The notes beneath the pieces were generated by a model. It searched no databases. It had not been told where the DNA came from and saw nothing but the letters and a program-made list of their open reading frames with translations. A program made the position numbers and the translations under genes. This document shows, in pieces, positions 5,121 through 62,700 of a DNA stretch of 64,000 nt. Within the stretch, counting starts at the first letter, position 1, and each line of letters starts with the position of its first letter. Origin of the DNA: Thozetella sp. PMI_491 (Eukaryota; Ascomycota; Sordariomycetes; Chaetosphaeriales; Chaetosphaeriaceae). The stretch covers positions 124,001 through 188,000 of the forward strand of contig MU270091.1 in the NCBI GenBank assembly GCA_021432635.1, written 5' to 3'.

Positions 5121-7347
5121 CTAAATGATATAAATTGTGTGCAATCCCTCCTCTTCGTCTAATAGCCCGGGCAATCCTTGCTCCGTCCTATCCCCCATCA
5201 TGATGTTCGCATCAGGCTTGCTCGCCACTATCACCCAGCCAATCCGGCGAAACCGGTGACGTGCTTCGTCGACAAGGCTCAGCAGCATGCAGTGAAGTTC
5301 TGCTTTGTCCATGTTGTAGTCACCTGGCTGTGGCCCATATCTCCAATACATTATGTAGTATGGCCGTAGCCCAAACTCCGCACAGTCCGAGTCCGAGACA
5401 GTAAAGTCTAGCCAGGGCTTCAACTGCACACTGAAAGGCTCATTGGGCACGGAGGACTCTTTGTCTTTCCCACCGCCCACGTGGTACAGGATTGGAAGTG
5501 TCAATCTCCAACGCCCAAGCTTTTGAAGCCGCACTGAGCGGAGCCGCCCTGTCACCCGAAGCTGGAACACGGGAGACCGCAGAGAGACACCGAACTCATC
5601 CTGAGTGAATGGCACGTCTCCCTCGGCAGCGAGGGCCCGGCTTTCCAGGGTGACGCAGGCCACTTTGACTAATATACCGATGGCAAAGGGTCCGTGTGAA
5701 TTAATCTTTCCTTTGACCGAGGCCCAGGAAAAGGACGGCGCATAGTACCGTGGTTCCTCTCCGAGTACGTAGCGTTGGCGATGCGAGTACATCCACCATC
5801 CCAACTCCGCCGAAAGGCGCTTCTGCCACATCCCCGCGAGATAAACATCTTTAATGTAGAGCTTATGGTGCCGGGCGATTCCGGAGATTGCGGCAAGCTT
5901 GTCGTCTGGGTAGGTGAACTCGCACCCGGTGTAGGCTTTGACGATATCATCCCACACTTCGTAAGGCAGGTCTTCGACTGGGAAGTTCTCGACTCCTAGC
6001 CATGGAGAGCCGTCCCATAGCTCTAATGGGGTTTGCCGTAGCGAGACGACGCAGTTGAGGTCGAGTAACGGAGCGGGGGGTAAATTTTCGGGGAAGCTTT
6101 CGCAGTAGAACTTCTCATGGCATTCCCAGAATATTTCCTGGCGACAGAAATGGACAACTCTGGGAGACAATATGCGCTCTTGAAACACCCATCCTCGGTT
6201 GCTCAACGGGGAGTTATTAACCTCTATTCGCCACATATCCTTATCTACCGAAGTCCAATCGACCACCTCGTCTCCATCTTGCCCAAGCGTTTGGATCTCA
6301 ACTTGGGAGTAGAAACTCGGCTCTCTATCGAAAAACAAGCCTTCATCTCCCGAGCCATAATCAGCCGAGATATTGAAGTAAGCATGCCGATAAATATCAT
6401 TCATCCGGCCGGATTCTGACTCCCAATCCCTGCCGTTGTCGCCAGCTTGAATGATGCAAAGACAGTCAATCCAGAGGAAGCGAATTCCCATGTAACGGGC
6501 CACAGAGATGGCGTCTTGGAAGGTCTGAGATAGATGGTTGATAGGCAGCCCAAGTCCGAGCTCTTCCTTGTTTTTCGTAGTGAGCAGTATCTTGTTTTGA
6601 GAACCCCATCGGTGACTTAACGTGACATAACGTTCTTGCTGAGGCATGCGATCACCGGCTACTATGCAAGCCAGACCCTTGACGCTTTCGATGTCGACCA
6701 GCCTCGTGGGGCGGAATTCATGGGGAGTCTCCGACACCCGGCATTTTGCATGGCCAGAAGTACAGCGATTCAACCAACCAAGGACAGTGTCGAGGGCAGT
6801 ACTCAAGCCTTTGTTGGGAGGCAAGCTACCTTGCGGAGAGAATCTGGTGAGCTCTGCGACGGGATGAAGAATTAGACACGAGCGCCGGAGATGGGGTCAT
6901 CGCTTCATATATATCTGACATGCCTTTCGTTGGGATGAAGAACAAAACTTGCTGAATAAATGCTGATTGGTGGCTGATACCATTGATCGACAGGCTCAGG
7001 GATATAGTAGGCAATCCATCTGTCCTGAACCTGATTATCTCCCAGAAAATCTCTGTTCCCCATCTTGTCCCGTTGACGACCGAGTTTACAGTAGCTTCCG
7101 CCGGTACGTCCAACCCAAGTTGCCCGCGTAGTGCTTCCTTGGATGCTAGCTCATCGAGCCCCAATCTGGTGCTCGGCTTGAGAAGGCGATAGCCTCGCCA
7201 ACAAAAATGGCATCTTTCCCTGGCAGCGCAAAGGAAGTCTGTTATTGAAGAATGATGTGAAAGGATGTGGTTACGGGACGGGTCTACTCTGCTGAGACTG
7301 AGCACTTCTTGGCAAACGTGGCACAGGCTCGCGGTAGAACCATTCAT
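5121..7347 (-). CDS. HET-domain protein, two exons
   Basis: Exon 1 starts at ATG 7347 (MNGSTASLCHVCQEVLS). An intron follows, with donor GTCAGA at 6919 and, in the frame-consistent solution, acceptor at 6826, giving about 710 aa. The upstream acceptor near 6854 does not keep frame. The N-terminus carries two CxxC/CxxCW pairs (CHVC, CHFCW) of the sort seen before HET domains of this class. The HET core in exon 2 is complete: YVTLSHRWG, GIRFLWIDCLCIIQ, ADYGSGDEGLFFDR and NRGWVFQERILSPRVVHF, then the later ELGWW and SFSWASVKG blocks. It is divergent from the next HET gene across 411 bp. Predicted cell-death/incompatibility role by family; no specificity domain is visible. The exact intron acceptor is the uncertain point. 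Confidence 0.85.
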
Positions 7348-7758: not shown

Positions 7759-9746
7759 ATGAGTGCTGATACGAGCTGCTCCACCTGCCTCCACAAACAG
7801 AGACATATTGGAGTGACCTTGGAAGCGATTCGAACCGGGTCGCTGAAGAATTGCATTCACTGCCAAATACGGGAGCAGGTCATCGCACAATGCATCCCTC
7901 CCGAGCTTGTGTGTGACAAGGGGAGGCTGCACTGGAGTAGAGCTGGCCCATGGCATGGATTACGATGGGAGGCTTGGAATGGATCTAGTATCACCTTCAG
8001 TATCTATCGACGTCCCGAAACCAAGGCCGAAGGTGCGTTCTGTAGCCCCCCTCTGCCTGTTAGGTGTGACGGCCAATTCCTAATTTGCTCATGCCTTTAT
8101 TAGGTGGTACCTCTTCCCTGATCCCAGTTTCGTATTACCGATCCAGCACGGCATCAAATGAAAGTCTTTTCCTTGCACAACAATGGATAAGGCAGTGCTA
8201 CGAGAGCCACGCACAATGCGGCTCCAAGAGTCTCTCTGCCTTGCCGAAGCGAGTTTTGCAGATAGCTAACACAACAATAAAACTCTACGAATCTAAAGGG
8301 GAAAAAGCAAAGTATACCTGCCTCAGCCACTGCTGGGGGACAAGCGCTCCTACTCACATGACCACTAAAGACACCGTACACCACTATTCGAGTGGAGCCG
8401 GAATACCGATTGATTCGATTCCTCAAACCTTTCGCGACGCGATTGATTTCAGTCGCCGTCTTGGTATCGAGTTTATATGGATCGACTCACTTTGCATAAT
8501 CCAGGATGATTTGCAAGACTGGGAAGAGCAGGCATCGCAGATGGCGTCTATTTATAAGGAAGCGCATCTCACCCTTTGCGCTACTTCCGCGCCAGACAGC
8601 TCATGGGGCTGTTACTCTTCATGCACGCAAAACATGAAACCTTTTAGCCTTTTCATAGGTGGTAATGCCTCGACGGGTTTCTTTTGTTCTATTGAGGACC
8701 AATCCATTCACATCCCGGACTGGGACCGAGCTACGCTGCCATTTTACCGCAACGACTTTCCGCTCTTGACAAGAGCCTGGTGTTATCAGGAAAGATTGCT
8801 GTCTCCCCGGCTGTTGCACTTCACTCGTGGTGAACTCATGTGGGAATGCGCTGGAGCCAGTGCATGCGAATGTACCTCGTTGGAATTTCTCGGTACGAAT
8901 AAGCGCCTTGACTCGAAGTACCTGCCCGAGCAAAGGGAGAAGCTTGCTTACGTGACAGGACTAGAGAGGCTGCGTGCTGTCCAGTCCATAGTTACGAGCG
9001 CAGGCAGCCTAAGTTTAAGCCAGGTGCATGATATTGCACGGCACTGGCATGACATCGTGGAAGAATACGTCAATCTGGAACTAACTTTTCACTCCGATAG
9101 ACTGGTGGCCCTTTCAGGAATTGCGCAAGAGGTCCTGAGGCTCCGGCCCGGAGGCGAAGTATACCTCGCCGGGCTGTGGAGGACCACTCTACTTGAGGAT
9201 CTCCGATGGACCGTATCTCACGGCAATTGTATAAGGCCATCGGCGTGGCGAGCGCCTTCCTGGTCATGGGCGTCTTTGAATGGGCCTATTTTCTATCTCG
9301 ATAGAGATGACACAGACATCCGAGACTACGCCGAAGTGATAGACGTCAAAACATCCTCCGAGGAGAACCGTCCATTGGGGCAAGTGACCTTTGGCTTTGT
9401 CGAGCTCAACGCGCCGACGGTAGCGGGGAGACTCTGGGTACCGGAATCCCGATCGGGAATAAAGAGGCAGATGTTTTTCGAAGCCGATGGTGTCCGGGTC
9501 GAATTCCAGGCCGACTGCCAAAGCGATATCCATCGGAGTAAGACCAAAGGTGTCAGTGACGAAGAGCTGCTCTGCCTACGACTTGGTAATGGCTTGAATG
9601 GGAAAGACTGCTGTCTTGTTCTCAGGAAACAACTGGGCTTCATTGCCGGGTATGAAAGGATCGGGTGCCTCCAGCTCGACACCCAGCAAGCGGAGACTAC
9701 ATGGTTTCCTTTAAATGGCTCCTTGAATCGAGTCGGGATAGTTTAG
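7759..9746 (+). CDS. HET-domain protein, two exons
   Basis: Exon 1 is 7759-8032 and exon 2 is 8104-9746, split by a 71-nt intron (donor GTGCGT, acceptor TTATTAG); the joined frame gives 638 aa. The first ATG gives MSADTSCSTCLHKQRH; like its divergent neighbour it has N-terminal CxxC pairs (CSTC, CIHC). The HET domain runs over about residues 145-300: YTCLSHCWG, GIEFIWIDSLCIIQD, YKEAHLTLCATSA, TRAWCYQERLLSPRLLHF and GELMWECAG. The C-terminal part has the family blocks RLVALSGIAQEV, YLAGLW and APSWSWASLNG. The paired Cys N-terminus and same domain order in both divergent genes suggest an old duplication followed by strong divergence. No disabling change seen. Confidence 0.9.
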
Positions 9747-49310: not shown

Positions 49311-52300
49311 TTACGGCGAGAGTGGTACAGTCAATCCCTGCTCCAACATCTCGAGTACTCTGTCGTTGTCCCGCTTCCTGGCATAGTCCACCGGCTTCTG
49401 GCCATTCTCATCCAATGCATCGATATTGGCGCCATAGGCGAGAAGAAGTCTTACCACATCCTCTTCACCGTGCTCAGCAGCTAGGGACAGCGCTGTTCGG
49501 CCATCTTCAGGACTGGCCTCCGCTTCGGCGCCATTCTCCAGGGCCCACCTCATAATAGACACGCCAAGCCTCTTCTCCGCCGCCCACCAAAGCGGCGTGC
49601 GACCCCTGGCGATCTCTTCGGTGCATTTGAGTTCAGAAAACGCATCGCACGGGTGGCCAACCCACAGCACCTGCGCAAAGTTACGGCAATACGCACCGGT
49701 GGACTTGGAGTTGATGTCAACCCTGCCAGTTCGCATCAGCATCTCCGCCACGCCACCGTGGCCCTGTCCGACCGCGAACGATATCGGCGTCCGACCGGGA
49801 TAAAGTGCTCCTGTGGCCTTGGAATCTGGATCGACCTTGCCGGTGCCTAGCAGGCGCCGCACAACCTCTTCATGTCCTTTCTCGGAGGCAAACGATAGGG
49901 GCGTCCGGCCCGCGTCGTATATGCCAACGGCCTTCGAGTCAGCATCAACTCCGCTTGTGCCCAGCAGTCTCTCTACCGCGGGCACATGCCCATTCTCGGA
50001 AGCAAACGACAGGGCCGTCCTCGAGAATTGGTCCTTCGATTCCACAGGGACCCTGCCCGTCTCAAGCAGCCGCCTCACGATTCCATCGTAACCTCCCTGG
50101 GCGGCCCACAACTGCGGGGCCTTTGTCGAGTATGCCAACAGGACAACCTGACATATAACGCGACGCGGCTACAACGACAATAACACGTAAGCCACCGAAG
50201 CCCTCTGACCATTTGCAAAAGAGGCAGCATGGTATGGAAAAACGCAGCGAGATCTTACCTGGCCAGCGGTCCTCGGTCTCCGAGTTGGGGTCCACGTCCT
50301 GGACCGACAGGAGCAGCTCTGCCACTCTCTCGTGGTCGTTTCTGGCAGCCCAAGCCAAAGGCGTCAGCCCTTCCTGGTCCTTAGTGTCGACATTGGCACC
50401 CGGAAAACTGATCAGAACCCCCACAGTCCCCGCATGCCCTCCTCGCGCAGCCAGCGCTAACGGAGTCTGCTCATGCATGTCCCTGTCGTTTACATGAAGT
50501 CCTCCCGCCTTGAGCAAAATCTTCGTGGTGCTCTCGTGCCCTGATAAGGCTGCGAAATGTAGTGGTGTGCGGCCGTCCTTATCCTTCACCGCCGGGCTGG
50601 CTTGTTGCTTGAGGAGAAATTGGATTACAATGTCGTGCCCGGCTTCCGCAGCGTAGGAGAGCGGCGTGCGGCCATGACTATCCTTAATATTGAAGTCCAC
50701 GATGGCATTAAAAAGCTGGACGACACAACCCAAACCGAAATAGGCTGCGAGATGGAGTCCTGTTATATGCCTAGGATAGCTTTTGGCGAAACCTGAGCTA
50801 TGACGTGGCAGATCGCGCACGAATAACGCCTGACTCGAAGCATCGACCATAGGACCAGACTTGAATAAGGTCATGATGAGTGAGGCGTGCTGCTCACCAT
50901 CTCTGCGAGAGTGGGTTCCCCAGTTGTGCGCCGCATATGTGAAAAACGGGGCTTCTCGGTACCGTTCTCTGAGCTCGTCGTCCGTCTCACATGGCCCGCT
51001 CTGGAATGGCCGGAAGGAGAGATAAGTGAGACAGACTCGGGTGATATTGGCCTCGGCGGCCGGAAACCATCGCGACCGTGTGCGGTGCAGATATGACTCT
51101 GCCGTGTGGTGCATGGTGCGGATGATTCTGCTCTCCTTGTCCACTGTGACAAGTCCGCAGCAGGCAGCTATCATGTCCTCGACGTCCGTGACATTGCTGT
51201 CGTCGAGCTCGAGCCCACCGTCCTCCACAGCCAGGGCGTGCTGGAGCTCTACTGTCGTCAACGGTCTCCTGGCGCAGACGATCCAGGAGAGGACGTCCAT
51301 GGTTAGCGCTGCCATGTCGGCACCCTGCGCTTCTATTCGCCTCATGGCGTCCTCGTACATGATATCATGTACGTCAGACCCAGTGCGAAGCTCCGACAGG
51401 GCTGCTCGTAGAACTTTGGCGGACCTTTTCTGGGCCAGAGACTTGAGGTGAAGCTGCGCCAGCAAGAATCTGCGTAGCGCATGTCAGCGCAGAGACTTGC
51501 TCGAAGAGGTGAGATGGGGCTCGGGGGTTTGTGGATAATACAAACGTACATGCCGTCCGCGGCCTTGACTATTGCATCTTTAATCTGCTCCTGCAGGCTC
51601 TGACTGCGGACGACGAACGCTGGAAGGTGCACCATCCGGCTGTCCAGGTAACTCCGGACGTCATAGTCCTTGGCTCGGATCTCTAAAGAGAGTTGTTCAA
51701 ATCTGTCGGTAATTTCGGGGATTGGCCTAGATGTGCAGAAGATATTTGCCGAACAGTCGGCCCGGAGCTTTGAAAGCTCCTCTAACAGCCTCGCCCTGCG
51801 TCCGCCGGCTGGACACTCGTCGAGCGCATCGATAACTATGAAGATTTCCCGTATAGAGCAGCCACGAGGCGGACATGCTGAGAGACTTCGTTGAAAGTCG
51901 GTCGGGAACCGTGGCGCTTGTGGCTCTTATAGAGAGACTGTGCACACTCGGGAACAGCCGGCCTGCTGCAAACAAGCTGCCGCAGTAGGCTCTCGAAAAT
52001 GTGCTCCACTTTTTGATTGTCCCGTTGTCGATAATTGAAATATATATAGAGGATGGCAACGCTTGGGTCGTCGCGATATCGGATGGCGAGCTCGTCAATC
52101 ACAAGAGAGGTAAGGGTCGTCTTTCCGGCGCCGGGGAGGCCCCAGCAGAGCAGCGCAAGACCCTCGCCCGAAACCCACGCCACGAACTCGGCCGAGTCGA
52201 GCAGCCACCGACCCGTCCCCGTTTGTCTGCGGCTTGCAGAATCGTTCTGCGATAGCGCATAGTCGGTTGAGCTGAGCCAGTCGAGAATGGCGAGTTGTTT

Positions 52301-52923
52301 TGGGCTGTCTTGAAGTCGGTTTAGGCGATCTACGCCTTGTTTCACTGCTAACGCTGCCGCGCTGTTGAGCGAGGAGTCAGACCTCTATAACTGGACAGGA
52401 TCTTTCTATGCAGATACGCCCAATAGGAAGTAGGTTTACGAATAAATCTACTTACCCAGACGCTTGCTCAAAGAATGCATTGAGCAGCGTCACGCTCAGC
52501 GTGATGCGACTTCGAAGCTCGCGGACATCGCTTGGCTCCCACCTGAATCGCTTCCATACTCTCTCGAGTATTTGGTGTGAGCTCCCCTGGCTAGGCGCCA
52601 AGGCACTATACTTGTCGCGGACGACTTCGACATCTCGGAGGACATTGAGACAATTGCAAGTCACCTCTTGCAACGTCTCCCGCTGCTGTGTATTAAGTTC
52701 GGATTCGGGGAGGAAGGCATCGATATCTTGGAGAATGAAAGAGAGCGACCTGATTCTACCCAAGGGCTATGAGCAAGAACTGGAGAGAACAGCGAAGTAA
52801 TAGGAACACATACTCCTCGGAGAGATTCTTGAACTGACTGGGAGCTGCAGCGTATTCCTTGCGCAGGCCGTGGGCAATTTGGGCTATTGCGATGAAATCC
52901 CCGATACTGAATCCGAAGCTCAT
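49311..52923 (-). pseudogene. NLR-type NACHT-ankyrin protein with interrupted frame
   Basis: Start ATG 52923 (MSFGFSIGDFIAIAQIAHGL, a common N-terminal helical module of fungal STAND proteins). Exons are 52923-52814, 52755-52456 and 52361-51550, then 51469-50259, then a last ankyrin block 50138-49311. The NTPase has Walker A in LLCWGLPGAGKTTLTSL and Walker B in IFIVIDALDECPAG, then the WH-like region (DVLSWIVCARRPLTTVELQH). At least ten ankyrin repeats follow (GRTPLSYAAEAGHDIVIQFL and similar), four of the last spaced by VDxDSKA-type linkers. Two breaks are seen: a net one-base loss just before Walker B (about 51.84 kb), and a phase mismatch at the last exon join (50.1-50.26 kb). Otherwise complete. 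Whether this is decay or assembly error cannot be settled from the sequence alone. Confidence 0.78.
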
Positions 52924-55484: not shown

Positions 55485-56318
55485 ATGGCTACCAAGACAT
55501 ACCTTCTCGCGCCCAGCTTTGACTACCCTCCTGGTAGCTCAATACGCCTGGGCGGTCTCGTGGCAGATCCTCTCAGTCCGCATAGACCATTAACCAGCCT
55601 CGCCCGAGATAAATGGCCAAAGACCACAGAAACTGTCCAGAAGGAGCGCGTTATTACACGGGGCAAAGGATTCGAGGCTGGGCTGTCTACAACGGCGCAG
55701 ATAATCCAAATCATCAATGCCAAAGTAGGAGGTAACTTTGCGAGAGATGAGGTGCTCGAGTACTCGATGGCGGCGCTCCGCACGGAGTTCTTCGAAGCAG
55801 ACCCCAACGAAGACGACATCCGAGATCTCCTCAAGCACCACAGAGTCCAAACCGCAATGGATTTCATCTTTTGGTCTCGTCCACTCTTTATGATCACGGG
55901 AATCAAGATTGCCGAGGGCCTTTCCTTGTACGCATCTTATACGGCTCAGCAGGACGCGAGTGTAAGCGGCGAGATGCCCATCCCAGCCGCTCCGGGGATT
56001 TCGGTTGGCCTTAACACGCAAGTCTCGACTAAAAGGCTCCAGGAAGACTCTTTCACGGCTACAGGAGATGTAGTTCTAGCATATCGCCTGCTGAAGATAT
56101 GCCGGAAAGGATGGCAGAAAAGAAGAACCGTGGCTAGCGAATATCGCCCTCGGTCTGCCTTCCTTGGAGATTTGACTGTAGAAGATGAGTGGAGCGATGA
56201 GATAGAGGTCGGAAGCGCAGCTGTAGCGGACATATCTGAGGCCGGCGTGGAGGAAGACTTGTCCTTAAGGGAAGTGCTGGTGGAACGCGATGGCAATGAG
56301 ACTGTCATATACGTGTAG
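55485..56318 (+). CDS. Fungal gasdermin-like pore-forming protein (HET-Q1/RCD-1 type)
   Basis: Intronless, 277 aa from ATG 55485, the length expected for fungal gasdermins. The start MATKTYLLAPSFDYPPGSSI, then RLGGLVADPLSPHRPL, fits the family N-terminus. Alternating beta-strand and helical segments follow (FEAGLSTTAQIIQIINAKVG, VQTAMDFIFWSRPLFMITGI, KIAEGLSLYASYTAQQD), then GDVVLAYRLLKI near 195-206. A basic stretch (KICRKGWQKRRTVASEYRPR, about 205-224) is followed by a strongly acidic tail (227-277). The only Phe of the tail region, F226, lies at this boundary. In this family a short C-terminal tail restrains the pore-forming part until a protease removes it. The stop is 104 bp from the stop of a convergent subtilisin-like gene, the partner arrangement known for het-Q1/het-Q2. 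No disabling change is seen. The call is by resemblance and context; no search was run. Confidence 0.75.
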   Translation: MATKTYLLAPSFDYPPGSSIRLGGLVADPLSPHRPLTSLARDKWPKTTETVQKERVITRGKGFEAGLSTTAQIIQIINAKVGGNFARDEVLEYSMAALRTEFFEADPNEDDIRDLLKHHRVQTAMDFIFWSRPLFMITGIKIAEGLSLYASYTAQQDASVSGEMPIPAAPGISVGLNTQVSTKRLQEDSFTATGDVVLAYRLLKICRKGWQKRRTVASEYRPRSAFLGDLTVEDEWSDEIEVGSAAVADISEAGVEEDLSLREVLVERDGNETVIYV

Positions 56319-56422
56319 GTATCGCACTTTGGGCATAGGGAAATTGGTTGGCGAGGAGTATGATCACGCCCGCTACTACAAATACAGTGTAGAACTGTCT
56401 CTCAAGTTGTCTCTTTCACCAA

Positions 56423-59400
56423 TCACCAACACCCGGGGTGGAGCCCAATGGCTCTCTTTAGCCTCGCTTGGCGGACATCGTCGCTTTCCTGGAACCAGCT
56501 GAAAGGCGCGATGTAATATCGCCCTGCGCCCGAGTACACTCCTATTTCTTTGAACAGCTCAAATATTCCTCTGCGCGTTCGCATAAGTCTCAGATCACTC
56601 GGCTGGAATTTGCTTGTCCTGCTTGCTGCATAGTCGAACAGCATAGATGCTATGCCCACAGCGACCGGCGTTGCCACAGAGCAGCCTGACATGGAGCGCC
56701 TGCTTTTTTCGCCGATCCAATCCGATAAAACATCTACACCTAGTGTCCCGAACACCGGACCTTCGGTGCTAGGTTGTGGATTGAACTTGGGCTCGAAGGC
56801 GCCCAAGTCGCTGGTACCACGGATGGCGATGACAGGCGGCCCCAGGTTGGCAGGAAACATTTCTCTCGCATTTAGCCCGTTGTTTGCAGCGGCTGCGAAG
56901 AATGTAATTGCCGATTTCTTATGGTGACAAGCGTCCGATATCGCCTGTTCTATTTTTTCGACATGCCGGGTAAATCCGAAAGACATGGAAACAAAATCAA
57001 CGTCCCAAACCATCGCCGCAGTACGGATGGCCTAGCTCTTCGGTTAGCATGTGAGTGATGCAAGCTCGACCAACTCGGTAATGAATCACCTCGCAAATAT
57101 TATCTATCGATGTCTCCAACTCCTGGCTGTTCTCGGCTACACGTGCAACAAAAATATCTGCAGAGGGGGCTACTTGTAGAAGGAGAGCGAGCGTATGGGT
57201 TCCATGTCCGTCACTATCCACGGGCTCGAGGGAATTCACCTTCGGCACGAAGTCTTCCCACTTTTTGATGCGATCTAGGCGACCGGGGAGATAAAACGAG
57301 GGTGCGTCTCTGCAGAACCCGGTGTCTAATATTGCAATTTTGAGGTGGTCAGTGCTACCCGCTCGTCTGATATCGTCTTTAAGGCCCCTGTTTATGAACT
57401 CGATCTCCTGCAACCAGGCCTCGCTTGCCGATCTATTTCCATCTATTAGCAACATGAACCCAGACTATAGCATGCCCCTTTCCATTCCTTGGCCGTGGAT
57501 TGGTGAAAACAGGAATGGTAAGTTTGTGGTAGACAGGGTAAAACAGCACAATATCATTAAAGCGGCGGATAAATTCCAAATGACGAGGCAAGGCAGTCAA
57601 GGGAGATGGGGGCAATACTTGACATGTGGACCACCCTCACTAGAAGATGGTGGCCAGCTAATCATAGTGGACACAGCATGCGCCGGCGTCATTGGAGTCG
57701 TTTTGGGCTCCTTCTTAGGAATTAATGGTGTGTGCTCGATCTCGTCGAATTCTGCGTGTAGTTCGGCGCCTGCGATGAACCGTTTTAAACGGTCCACAAT
57801 CTCATCATAAAATATCGACCGTCGCTGATCTAGGTTCTCCTCCGGACGCTCCGGGTTGAAAGGTGCGTCTTTGAATAGTTTTATATCGAAGCACTTTTTC
57901 AAGGCGGCTCGATAGTACGGGAAGTTGCAGTCCGACTCCAATTTGGAACTCTGGATATAGCCTTTCAACAATTCCAACTGCTCATTGGCCATTTTGGAGT
58001 CCCAGTTATCAGGGTGGCCCTCGAGGCGGATAGGATCTGCCGTAGATAGCTGGAGGAGCAGTATTCCGAGAGCAAGCACTCTTGGATACCGGTGCATCAT
58101 GCCAAATACTTGCCTGTATTCAGGTGGTCTCCCATGGGAAGTGTTGAGGTTGACATGGACGTACGGTCTGCAGAGGTATTTAATCTCGTAGCCATTGGTT
58201 GTCTCGGCCATAAAGTAAATGTTGTGTTTTGTCCACCCAAAATTCATCCAGTCGGAGTCATAGTAGTGCCACACCGTCTTAGCCAAGACATAAGCTAGGA
58301 GAGGTCGCATTCCATGCCTCAATTTGTATCCGTCTAGCGCATCGCTGAGTTGCAGTCCCAAGCCTGGCTCGGGTTTATACCCCTCGGGTAGATTTTCCTG
58401 TTCACGTAAGGCCATCAAGCGGCCTCGATCGAGTCGGAAGCAAACGAGGGAGCCACTTGGGCTCGATATGAATTTGCAAAGACTTCCTTCGACCAAGTCG
58501 GAATCTTCAATGACGGCAGGCTCGGAAAGGTTGATTGTAGCGTCTCCTTGCTTAAACTGCACGCTCTTGGGAAATGCATTCTTGCTGCACGGTGGGATTA
58601 ATTAGCTGAGACTTTTGTCGCAAGAAGAAGGCTTCTTCCTCTAAGCATTACCTTCGGACCATTATCTTAACGCTTTGCCAACTATGGTTCCCACTTGTTA
58701 TAGGATCTGGTGAGGCAGAGAATAGCATTTCGAATGGAACCAACTGGCCCTCGACAAATCGGTGGATGGGTCTCAATCTAACCCTGGCCCAGTGTTGGTG
58801 GGCTTGGGACGGTTTCGTGCAGCTGCATTGTGCATGTTCGCACAGAGCAGCGTGTAGAGATTTAGCATATCTAGTGTATGCCGGCAGGTCGTCGTCCATG
58901 CTGGTCGATGAGCTCGCGATGTCCAGCTCTTCGTCATCTCCGATCTGCGAACAGGCCTTAAGGACCTGCACTATTGTGCCGGGGGTGGTTTTCTTTTTGA
59001 TCAAAGCTGCCCGGACTTTTGCCTGCACCTTTTCAAGTGCTCTTGGATCACTGTCCTGTGCAGCTCGATGTGCTGCAGCGATGGAGTCTAGAGAAGGGTA
59101 CTTCGATTCTGTGACAAGCCCATGGCTCCACTTTAATCGAGTCAATCTCCGCTAAGGTATGAGAACAGTAAAATTATCAGGAGCCAACAGGTCAAATGAT
59201 GGAGGTTGCCCGAGATGGCGACAGAAGTGAAGAGAGGTTCGGGAATGTCATATTGCTTACCGATATGGCTCCTTCCACGGCTTTCAGAGCCTGACTGAGC
59301 GTCTTGCCTCTCTCTAGAGCAGCTTTCTGGTCGTTCGAGAAATGTAGCGTTTCTTCTGCCAGGGAGCACATATGACCACCCAGCTCGCCAAGGCTACTGC

Positions 59401-59602
59401 TAGATGTTTCCCTTGCGAGCTCTGTCACCACATCAGAGATACTTGGAAATGAGTCTTGGACTAGGCATATCATGGGATAGTGACAAGATCGGCGCTCGGA
59501 CGAGGACATCTTGACGGCCCTGAGATACGTGATAGAGGCCCTGAGGATCTGGCGGAAGCCCAGTCTGAAGTTCGAAAAGGCTGCGGGGTTGAACATGCTC
59601 AT
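56423..59602 (-). CDS. Subtilisin-like (S8) protease with N-terminal regulatory region (HET-Q2-like)
   Basis: Exons 59602-59261, 59151-58652, 58584-57641, 57442-57090 and 57031-56423 join in frame (915 aa); intron 3 is long (198 nt). Start at ATG 59602 (MSMFNPAAFSNFRLGFRQIL); the frame is open further upstream without ATG. Residues 1-280 are mostly helical with no signal peptide. About 285-560 resemble the fungal DUF7580-type region (LCKFISSPSGSLVCFRLD, GMRPLLAYVLAKTVWHYYD, RVLALGILLLQLS). The peptidase S8 domain is about 620-880 with the full triad: Asp635 in IAILDTG, His675 in DSDGHGTHT, Ser831 in SGCSVATP, and oxyanion Asn in AAANNG. It is cytoplasmic in layout, convergent with the gasdermin-like gene and divergent from the kinase-like gene. 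The inferred role is to sense a trigger and process the gasdermin. Confidence 0.85.
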
Positions 59603-59763: not shown

Positions 59764-62700
59764 ATGTCGCAGCCTTCTGATCACGGTTCGATATACGAGG
59801 CTAGCATTGCATGCCGCAAGTGTCTACAAGATTGCCTAGACATTGCGCCACTCATGATTGATGAGTGGCCACGAAAGCGCCTTGCTGACTTCAACATTTG
59901 GGCCGCGGGATCCGGAGCCTTGGCCAAGCAGAAAGCATCGTTAGACGAGAGGCTTGCAACAAAACAGAGTATTCGGAAAGTCGTCATAAATTTGCTCTCC
60001 TTGTTAGAATCGTTGATTTTGGAATGCCAACGTCGAGGTATATATTATCTGTGTACAAGTATCCAAAAATTGTGAGCGCCTATGTTGACTGGGCAATTAC
60101 CCAGCCTTCGCGGAAGGAGAGAATTATACCTTACAAGGTCCGCCTACGGAATCGGACGATGCTAAGGCACTGGATGACAAATTATCAAAGCAGAAGCCAC
60201 CTTCTCTTGTCGACAGCCTCGCCAGTGTTGAGACCATCCTAAACCAGCTCGTGAGAATATCGATTGCCATTCGTCGCGCAGGTACCCAGGCACGGCTAGA
60301 GAGGGCAGACAGTACCTATCTCTCAGATAACCATGAAGAACTAAGACAGTACCTCTCTGTGCTAATATTTGCTCTTGGGTTGAGCGTGCATGAGAAGGAA
60401 GACGGGAATGTTGACATCGATGTACAATCCCGAAGCTTGACTGCCATTCAAGAGCGACTAGTGGACGCCAATTTGAGACGTCGGCATCGATTTCTGTACG
60501 CTCAGAGGAGATGGAAAAGGAAACAAAAAGAAGAATGGAGGGAAGGAGACCGTCGTTCTAATTTGATAGCTGAGGGGACGAACTCTCCAAGCCAACCGGC
60601 CCCTGTCCCGAAGTTCGACACCGCAAAGGTGGATGGCAGAGCTCAGGATGTGCAAAGGGTTCAAAAACCCGCTCCCACGACTCCAAGCACAGCCCTGACC
60701 CCTTTAGATGGCCCTATAGAGATCCCACAAAGCAGCAGGCGATCAATGACTGCCGTATCATCAACAAGCACCAAGGTCGCATACCCCGAGCCACCAAAGG
60801 TCTCAAATGGCCAATCCTTCTTCATATGCCCATGTTGCTGCCAACCACTTTCAACCATGGTCTTCAGAGACAATAAGTGGAAGTGTGTCTGGTCTCCACT
60901 TCCATGAATAATGTTCGGGTTTCCTGACTATATACTAGGAAGCATCTTGCCGAGGACATACTACCTTATACCTGCGTATTAGACGACTGTCCGCGGCCAC
61001 AGAAGATTCATCAGACGCGTCAAGAGTGGGTTGACCACATGCACACCGATCACAAAAGTTCGCAGTTCTGGCTGTGTTTTGCATGCCCTGAGCCTAACAA
61101 GTTCCACGACGAACAACACTTCGTTTGGCATCTCCAAAAGGACCACTCCGATGCGATATCAGTCGATCAGATCCCATTCTTTCTTTCTGAATGCGTCTGC
61201 GAAGTTCCCATGGATCTTTCCCTCTGTCCGTTATGCGGTTTAGAAACTTCTGAGGAAGTGGACCCCGAGAAACTCTTGTCGCATGTCGCCGAACACGTAC
61301 ACTCATTCTCTCTAAACTCCTTACCTTGGCCGATTCCAGGAGAAAAGGAGCGCCGCTATCTCTCCATTGACGACATCACAGGAGACGAACTTGACTACTT
61401 CGATGTGAGTTCCGCACCTGGTGGCCCAGATAAAACTCATTCTTCACTTATGGAAGAAGAGCACGATATCGACCCCCCGCCTCCGTTTTCTAAAGTCTTG
61501 CGATGTAACGACTTTTACAATTACATCGAAGAGTACATCGTTGAGAACGACTGCTATGGCTTGAATGGTTTCGGCAAGCGATGCGGGTTTGCTTCTTCCC
61601 AGGCTTTGCGTCAATACTGGACCCCGGTCAAGATCGTTGACGTAATATACGAGGCCAGCGGTAATACGAAGCAAGTTCGCGTCTTCTCGGATTCTAGTGA
61701 CATTTACAACAAATATCTCATCGTATTTTCAGTGCTAGTCTCTATCGGTCACCCTCAGCATATACTGTCATTCCTACAGATCTCGTTGAACGATTCAATG
61801 TTGCCGTTTCATGCCACCCCCGAAATCTGGGCCGGAGCGGAAGAACAGCTACAAGTCTTTCAACTGTTTGAAATGGAACAGTGGAGGTTCTGCCCCCTGA
61901 CCTTCGGGAGCGGCCACAAACTACACATGTCGAAGCTATCCCCACACCAAATAGTTCCTTTAATGGAGAAAAAACGACTGGTCTCAGAAAAGGACAGCAC
62001 GGATGATGCTCTCCTCTTCCAAACATCAATTCATCCCGACTGTCGTGGGGCTCTCCCGGTCCGTATATCGCCCAAAGTGATAGCTGGGGACCTAGCAGGT
62101 GCTTACTTCTCACAGGCCACTGTCGTCCTTAAGGAGTATTACGGCGACGAGTTAGGCACAAGCGCAATTTTCTTGAACGAAGTGGCAGTCTACTCTAATC
62201 TAAGAGAGGAGTCATTTGACGAAATTGTCAAATATTACGGTTCCTTCCGTCAAGTCGGAGTGAACACACTCATCCTAGAACAAGCAGACGGGGGCACCCT
62301 AGCAAATTTCTTCGAGCGAACAAAGCCTATTGAACGTCCCGAAGATCGACTCTACTTTTGGAGAGAATTTCTAGGCCTCCTGAGAGGGCTTGACTATATT
62401 CATAATTTCCAACCTCTCGACGGAGACTCGGCCGGTTCATCTGATGCGGTGTCAGTACAGCGCCAAAACCATCTGAACACAACTGAATGGCTCTAACTTG
62501 TCTTTAGGATCCATCAGAACATCCGGCCGCAGAACATTCTTGTCTTTAAGGGCGAGAGCCAGAACCCATATGATGTACGCTTCAAGTGGACTGACTTTAG
62601 AAGCGCTCAGGTTCCCCGGTATTCGACCAAAAAGTTAGAGTTGGAGGGCAATGTTATGTACAGTGCGCGCAGCTAAGTGAAATATCCTCGGAGCCTTCGA

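Follow-up and report, generated by a model that had tools for sequence, protein, structure and literature searches.

Does the gasdermin gene at one end of positions 55485 to 59602 in a 64-kb window of Thozetella sp. PMI_491 (Chaetosphaeriales, Sordariomycetes) work with the protease gene that faces it? The window, the whole stretch of DNA analysed, is part of contig C77 in a 72.3-Mb, 157-contig genome. We consider it very probable that the two genes form a cassette for regulated cell death, of the type known from fungal gasdermin/Q2L clusters. This reading is directly supported by the structures of both genes, the homology and predicted fold of the gasdermin, the intact catalytic triad of the protease, the fusion of DUF7580 to a subtilisin-like S8 domain, the recurrent linkage of such genes and their co-divergence.

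The gasdermin and its acidic tail

The gasdermin gene (55485..56318, + strand) is a single open frame from ATG to TAG that encodes 277 amino acids (aa) without an intron, as the first-pass annotation had described. Because Pfam returned no model for this protein at E 1 or below, we relied on profile and fold evidence. In a profile search, the protein matched the characterised fungal gasdermins RCD-1-1 (1.8e-16), RCD-1-2 (2.2e-15) and HET-Q1 (2.1e-13), and 10 of the 11 matches at E up to 10 were gasdermins. The predicted structure has the fold of a gasdermin N-terminal domain, with RCD-1 as the best structural match, and the gasdermin core residues are conserved. Thus, both the profile and the fold bear out the identity first proposed. 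Counting against it are the Pfam result and the low confidence of the model at residues 61-80 and 161-180 (mean predicted local distance difference test score, pLDDT, 47-58). On homology and modelling, the protein is a member of the fungal gasdermins (fGSDM), for which pore formation and cell death are predicted.

The pore-forming domain spans about residues 1-223 (55485-56153, +) and is followed by an acidic, disordered C-terminal tail, residues 224-277 (56154..56315, +), across which pLDDT is below 50. The basic-to-acidic switch noted earlier near residue 225 is borne out by a net charge of +5 over residues 1-225 and -14 over 226-277. Through residue 226, the isoelectric point is 9.3; for the last 51 residues, which amount to 5.54 kDa, it is 4.05. 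In eight gasdermin paralogs, the last 55 residues are likewise acidic (net -6 to -18). This short C-terminal region (51-54 residues) stands where mammalian gasdermins have a large inhibitory domain, and the tail is presumed to be auto-inhibitory.

The predicted P1 residue of an activating cut is Phe226 (codon 56160..56162, +), within the motif R-S-A-F-L-G. We examined this junction in alignment A1, whose 20 rows include nine of the 18 gasdermin loci of this genome. In the 19 rows that reach the column, the residue is F in 10, L in five, M in three and V in one. According to the accessible text of PMC10989679, HET-Q1 is cut after F238 and sheds 40 residues, about 5 kDa. Phe226 is the best candidate because its place, the size of the tail and the type of residue match the HET-Q1 cut. 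The activating cut would thus most likely fall after Phe226 and free a tail of approximately 5.5 kDa, a prediction weakened by the possibility that folding constraints explain the conservation of the column.

A DUF7580-S8 protease

The two stop codons are separated by 104 bp (56319..56422, assigned to no strand), in agreement with the tail-to-tail layout and spacing first reported. The protease gene (56423..59602, - strand) has five exons and encodes a Q2L-type sensor protease of about 915 aa, as indicated by the gene model, identity to a deposited protein and Pfam. When exons 59602-59261, 59151-58652, 58584-57641, 57442-57090 and 57031-56423 were joined, the 915-aa frame contained no internal stop, and all of the introns are GT-AG. 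Both frames had been described as free of breaks; this holds for the gasdermin as it stands, and for the protease only once its four introns are removed. An alternative choice of intron 3 also leaves the frame open. The first choice was favoured because deposited P0013, a subtilisin-like protein of Thozetella sp. PMI_491 that is identical to protease residues 199-915 (717 aa), agrees with it.

The protein is ordered as an N-terminal region, DUF7580 and the S8 subtilase. Exon 1 (59261..59602) encodes the N-terminal region and begins at either 59602 or M32 (59509). The best N-terminal homolog matches begin at residue 40-45 and that of P0023 at residue 28; the N-termini of P0014, P0025, P0028 and others match residues of about 42-203. 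Upstream of residue 199, P0014 is 33% identical over 174 residues (E 1e-19). The deposited P0013 model starts at M199, within exon 2, and so is without about 170-200 homolog-supported N-terminal residues (58652-59602). Exon 2 (58652..59151), flanked on both sides by GT-AG introns and supported by homology and Pfam, carries the end of the N-terminal region and the start of DUF7580 at residue 206. Exon 3 (57641..58584) encodes the core of DUF7580 (Pfam E 1.7e-19). The S8 domain starts in exon 4 (57090..57442), with catalytic Asp635 (ILDTG) and His675 (DGHGTH), and continues in exon 5 (56423..57031), with Asn763 (AAANN), catalytic Ser831 (GCSVATP) and the stop codon.

Over the whole protein, Pfam placed DUF7580 at residues 206-548 (E 6.3e-24) and Peptidase_S8 at 629-860 (E 5.8e-11). 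The first-pass annotation had claimed a 915-aa S8 protease with a complete Asp/His/Ser triad. Indeed, D635, H675 and S831 are present together with N763 at the oxyanion position; the DUF7580 upstream of S8 is an addition to that account. Two protein searches, each of which scored the best 8000 candidates by shared words, together yielded 54 proteins, and 42 of these make up alignment A3, in which conservation was assessed. The Asp is conserved in 40 of the 42 homologs (two gaps), the His in all 42, and the Asn and Ser each in 41 (one gap). Among 50 relatives found with a profile built from proteins already carrying DUF7580 and S8, DUF7580 is present in 46 and accompanied by S8 in 40.

We rejected a secreted or vacuolar location for the protease. 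Neither an inhibitor nor a prodomain family was matched in Pfam at E up to 1, and the best match of the homolog profile among solved structures was an intracellular serine protease, the subtilisin 7xr8 (1.3e-26). The protease is therefore probably cytosolic. No match to WD40, ANK or TPR models was obtained in Pfam.

The DUF7580 domain was compared with solved structures using a profile (A4) of 18 DUF7580 exons from this genome, spanning 381 positions. Of its 42 PDB matches up to E 10, 40 were kinases or pseudokinases. Below 0.001, the matches were solely to IRAK4 (26 closely related sequences, 1.7e-5 to 3.3e-5) and a maize pseudokinase (6.4e-4). BIK1 and MLKL came next at about 0.08, which is insufficient alone. 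A motif scan restricted to the region corresponding to P0013 100-350 found HRDxxxxN in none of the 42 homologs and DFG-like triplets in seven; in P0035 and P0051, the triplet is the DLG of an RDLGIMLVEI helix. We take both catalytic motifs, HRD and DFG, to be missing. An ordinary kinase in the alignment is not the source of the kinase signal, as Pfam assigned no kinase family to any of the 18 exons at E 1 or below. That same absence speaks against a kinase-like fold, as do the span of the IRAK4 match (just 80 of the 381 profile positions), the lack of Pkinase among the Pfam families of the 42 homologs, and an hhalign comparison of the profile with two single fungal kinase-like sequences, which returned nothing. 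The best reading of these sequence comparisons is that DUF7580 is a degenerate kinase, a predicted pseudokinase that lacks the HRD motif.

Linkage and co-divergence across the genome

We asked how often the two kinds of gene are found together. Searches with six gasdermins and a neighbourhood scan identified 18 gasdermin loci. A DUF7580-S8 gene, of which there are likewise 18, lies within 10 kb at 15 of these loci and within 2 kb at 11. The chance per locus is about 0.6% for 10 kb and 0.2% for 2 kb, so that approximately 0.1 linked loci would be expected (18 x 0.006). C6:341839 came to light solely because the flanks of a protease were inspected; if this locus is set aside, 14/17 are linked within 10 kb and 10/17 within 2 kb. 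The 18 DUF7580-S8 genes are those in loci chosen around gasdermins or with both Pfam domains together, and the gasdermin neighbourhoods were scanned more sensitively than the rest. Since this list leans on chosen loci, the count was repeated using uniform Pfam lists: DUF7580, with 44 matches in the genome, lies within 10 kb at 15/18 loci and S8 at 13/18 (chance 1.3% and 3.0% per locus, respectively). Two S8 genes missed in these lists, the window's own and that of C7, are sub-threshold in Pfam exon by exon.

The partners also diverge together. Distances between gasdermins correlate with those between partner S8 exons (Mantel test, 12 pairs, r 0.60, a value reached in none of 20,000 permutations), and the 10 close pairs alone give r 0.58 (p 1e-4). 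These 12 were drawn from the 15 linked pairs, leaving out C66 and C19:265893, whose partner is ambiguous or lies at a distance of 5-10 kb, and C6:341839, whose gasdermin is in two frames. The gasdermins of C131 and C7 were represented by the longer open piece, and C65 and C6:72342 were read stop to stop. Species relatedness cannot explain the correlation, because all of the genes are paralogs in one genome. In six of the 11 close pairs, the genes converge and their stop codons are 40-104 bp apart (40-91 bp in the five besides the window's); the excess over one quarter (p 0.034) is too weak for a rule. The first-pass annotation had looked to conserved linkage in related genomes. The linkage recurs within this genome, as described above; in other genomes we have one case, probable on the grounds that the gasdermin relative P0007 and the DUF7580-S8 relative P0030 are each reported on a contig 81,471 bases long, which is probably one and the same.

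Several observations run counter to a fixed partnership. At three gasdermin loci (C11, C1 and C19:327239), no DUF7580-S8 gene was found within 10 kb. For C11, none was found across C11:1037500-1067000; around the C1 and C19:327239 gasdermins, approximately 5 kb on each side was scanned with sensitive profiles and the remainder was covered by the Pfam lists alone. Conversely, a gasdermin lies within 10 kb of 15 of the 18 DUF7580-S8 genes. For the other three (C125, C95 and C96), no gasdermin was found in the 3-5 kb read on each side, and the genome-wide gasdermin searches gave no match on their contigs. At four loci, the partner is 5-10 kb away. With three of 18 unpaired on either side, the pairing is not obligatory.

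Some loci have other neighbours. The C11 gasdermin (C11:1051828-1052667) is intact and lies near an AMP-binding/carrier-protein open reading frame resembling a nonribosomal peptide synthetase. At C66, a DUF7580 gene without detectable S8 (L015:7312-9627, -) lies about 2 kb from the gasdermin and a DUF7580-S8 gene lies 9.6 kb away. We rejected CHAT as the usual partner in place of S8: only one of the 14 CHAT matches in the genome (C6:77309) is within 10 kb of a gasdermin locus. There, the gasdermin C6:72342-73214 is flanked by a DUF7580-S8 gene and, at about 4 kb on the opposite side, by the CHAT match, so that C6:69155-78124 possibly holds two proteases for one gasdermin.

Alternatives, proposed mechanism and known systems

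The window's gasdermin might instead be RCD-1-like, that is, fired by a divergent partner gasdermin after cell fusion and not by the neighbouring protease. We regard this as improbable. RCD-1 is the best structural match and, in the available part of PMC12881547, is reported to work uncleaved, two allelic forms assembling into a heteromeric pore, which tells against a cleavage-fired cassette. However, RCD-1 of Neurospora crassa is described as pairing two such forms, whereas the gasdermin studied here has an acidic tail and an intact S8 protease that is linked to it and co-diverges with it. Moreover, the 51-aa tail following a conserved hydrophobic residue resembles that of HET-Q1.

It is no more probable that the pair is a decayed or dormant member of a birth-and-death family and has no function at present. 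The family is indeed large and diverged, with 18 loci, and the gasdermins at C7:518771, C19:327239, C6:341839 and C131:36140 have in-frame stops or lie in two frames, and may be broken or intron-bearing. In the window, by contrast, both frames are intact, the splice signals fit, and the triad and gasdermin core residues are conserved. Chance adjacency, with the protease acting on another substrate, is the least probable alternative and was rejected: it could draw on the three DUF7580-S8 genes beside which no gasdermin was found, but is at odds with 15 linked gasdermin loci, against about 0.1 expected, and with the co-divergence of the partners.

For a regulated gasdermin-protease cassette, we infer the following sequence of events. 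The gasdermin would be made inactive, restrained by its tail. The protease would serve as a cytosolic sensor, its N-terminal region and pseudokinase-like DUF7580 holding the subtilase off until a trigger is perceived; candidates are non-self contact, infection and damage. The activated protease would then cut the gasdermin at the domain-tail junction, and the freed basic N-terminal domain would oligomerise in the plasma membrane, such that the cell is killed or sealed off. The accessible text of PMC12881547 names the trigger of fungal gasdermin death as an open question, and a pseudokinase-like gate provides a concrete hypothesis for how the protease senses it. The co-diverging cassettes of this single genome, about a dozen in number, further constitute a panel for studying protease-substrate specificity.

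A bolder form of this proposal, to which we give somewhat less than an even chance, is that an MLKL/IRAK-like pseudokinase DUF7580 gates the subtilase, that the widespread DUF7580-S8 proteins of Pezizomycotina constitute a death-sensor class of their own, and that the unit has multiplied here in the form of linked cassettes that have drifted apart, with every protease fitted to its particular gasdermin. If so, the pseudokinase switch that releases the necroptosis executioner in animals would here release a gasdermin-firing protease. In the open-access literature searched, no paper mentioned DUF7580, no title or abstract start among the papers listed named a pseudokinase-subtilase-gasdermin system, and no paper named both gasdermin and Thozetella.

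Pairing of a gasdermin with an S8 protease is already known in fungi, and the window provides a further case. In the available text of PMC10197012, about 1,900 gasdermins are reported from 400 fungal genomes, with ~80% of the genes clustered with proteases and ~63% with S8 proteases, in line with the earlier remark that the two often adjoin. The most frequent layout in that text (the Q2L clusters), in which a multidomain S8 protease lies no more than 10 kb from a gasdermin, is that of the window; the repeats named there are WD40, ANK and TPR, whereas DUF7580 lies upstream here. The accessible part of PMC12881547 describes gasdermin-linked proteases as multidomain sensors, some with kinase-like fusions, and does not name DUF7580.

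The first-pass annotation had classed the pair as HET-Q1/HET-Q2-type, which stands as far as a gasdermin with a linked S8 protease is concerned. As described in the available literature, HET-Q1 of Podospora anserina is a 278-aa gasdermin, close to the 277 aa found here, with a Phe at P1 near its C-terminus, as predicted here, and a tail of about 5 kDa; HET-Q2 is a subtilisin-like S8 protease. However, HET-Q2 has 388 aa (PMC10989679, accessible text), as opposed to about 915 aa with DUF7580 in the window. Further, het-Q1 and het-Q2 occupy a single locus as alternatives to each other (idiomorphs; PMC12881547, accessible text), whereas the genes studied here lie side by side in one assembly. Because the two coexist, the protease is presumably off at rest. 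Overall, the evidence supports a gasdermin clustered with a Q2L-type sensor protease and not a het-Q1/het-Q2 incompatibility system. The accessible text of PMC10197012 proposes that het-Q1/het-Q2 originated when a rearrangement left behind a sensor that is constitutively active, and the window's pair looks like the intact type that could give rise to such a system. Bacterial gasdermin-protease operons have the same gasdermin fold and, in the parts of the reviews available, a similar gene pairing; identity to the bacterial gasdermins is about 9-11% over the aligned fold.

Other genes in the window were also inspected. About 3 kb from the gasdermin, adjacent open reading frames at 49311-52345 (-), which we take to form one gene, encode an NLR-like protein with NPHP3_N (a NACHT-type P-loop domain), a winged helix and many ankyrin repeats. 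The 64-kb window that holds the NLR-like gene and the gasdermin pair also encodes two proteins with a HET (heterokaryon incompatibility) domain, at 5124-6824 (-; E 6.7e-29) and 8085-9743 (+; E 4.1e-29). Finally, a 485-aa open reading frame at 61039-62496 (+) has weak C2H2 zinc-finger matches and a protein-kinase match below the cut-off (E 3.1e-5).

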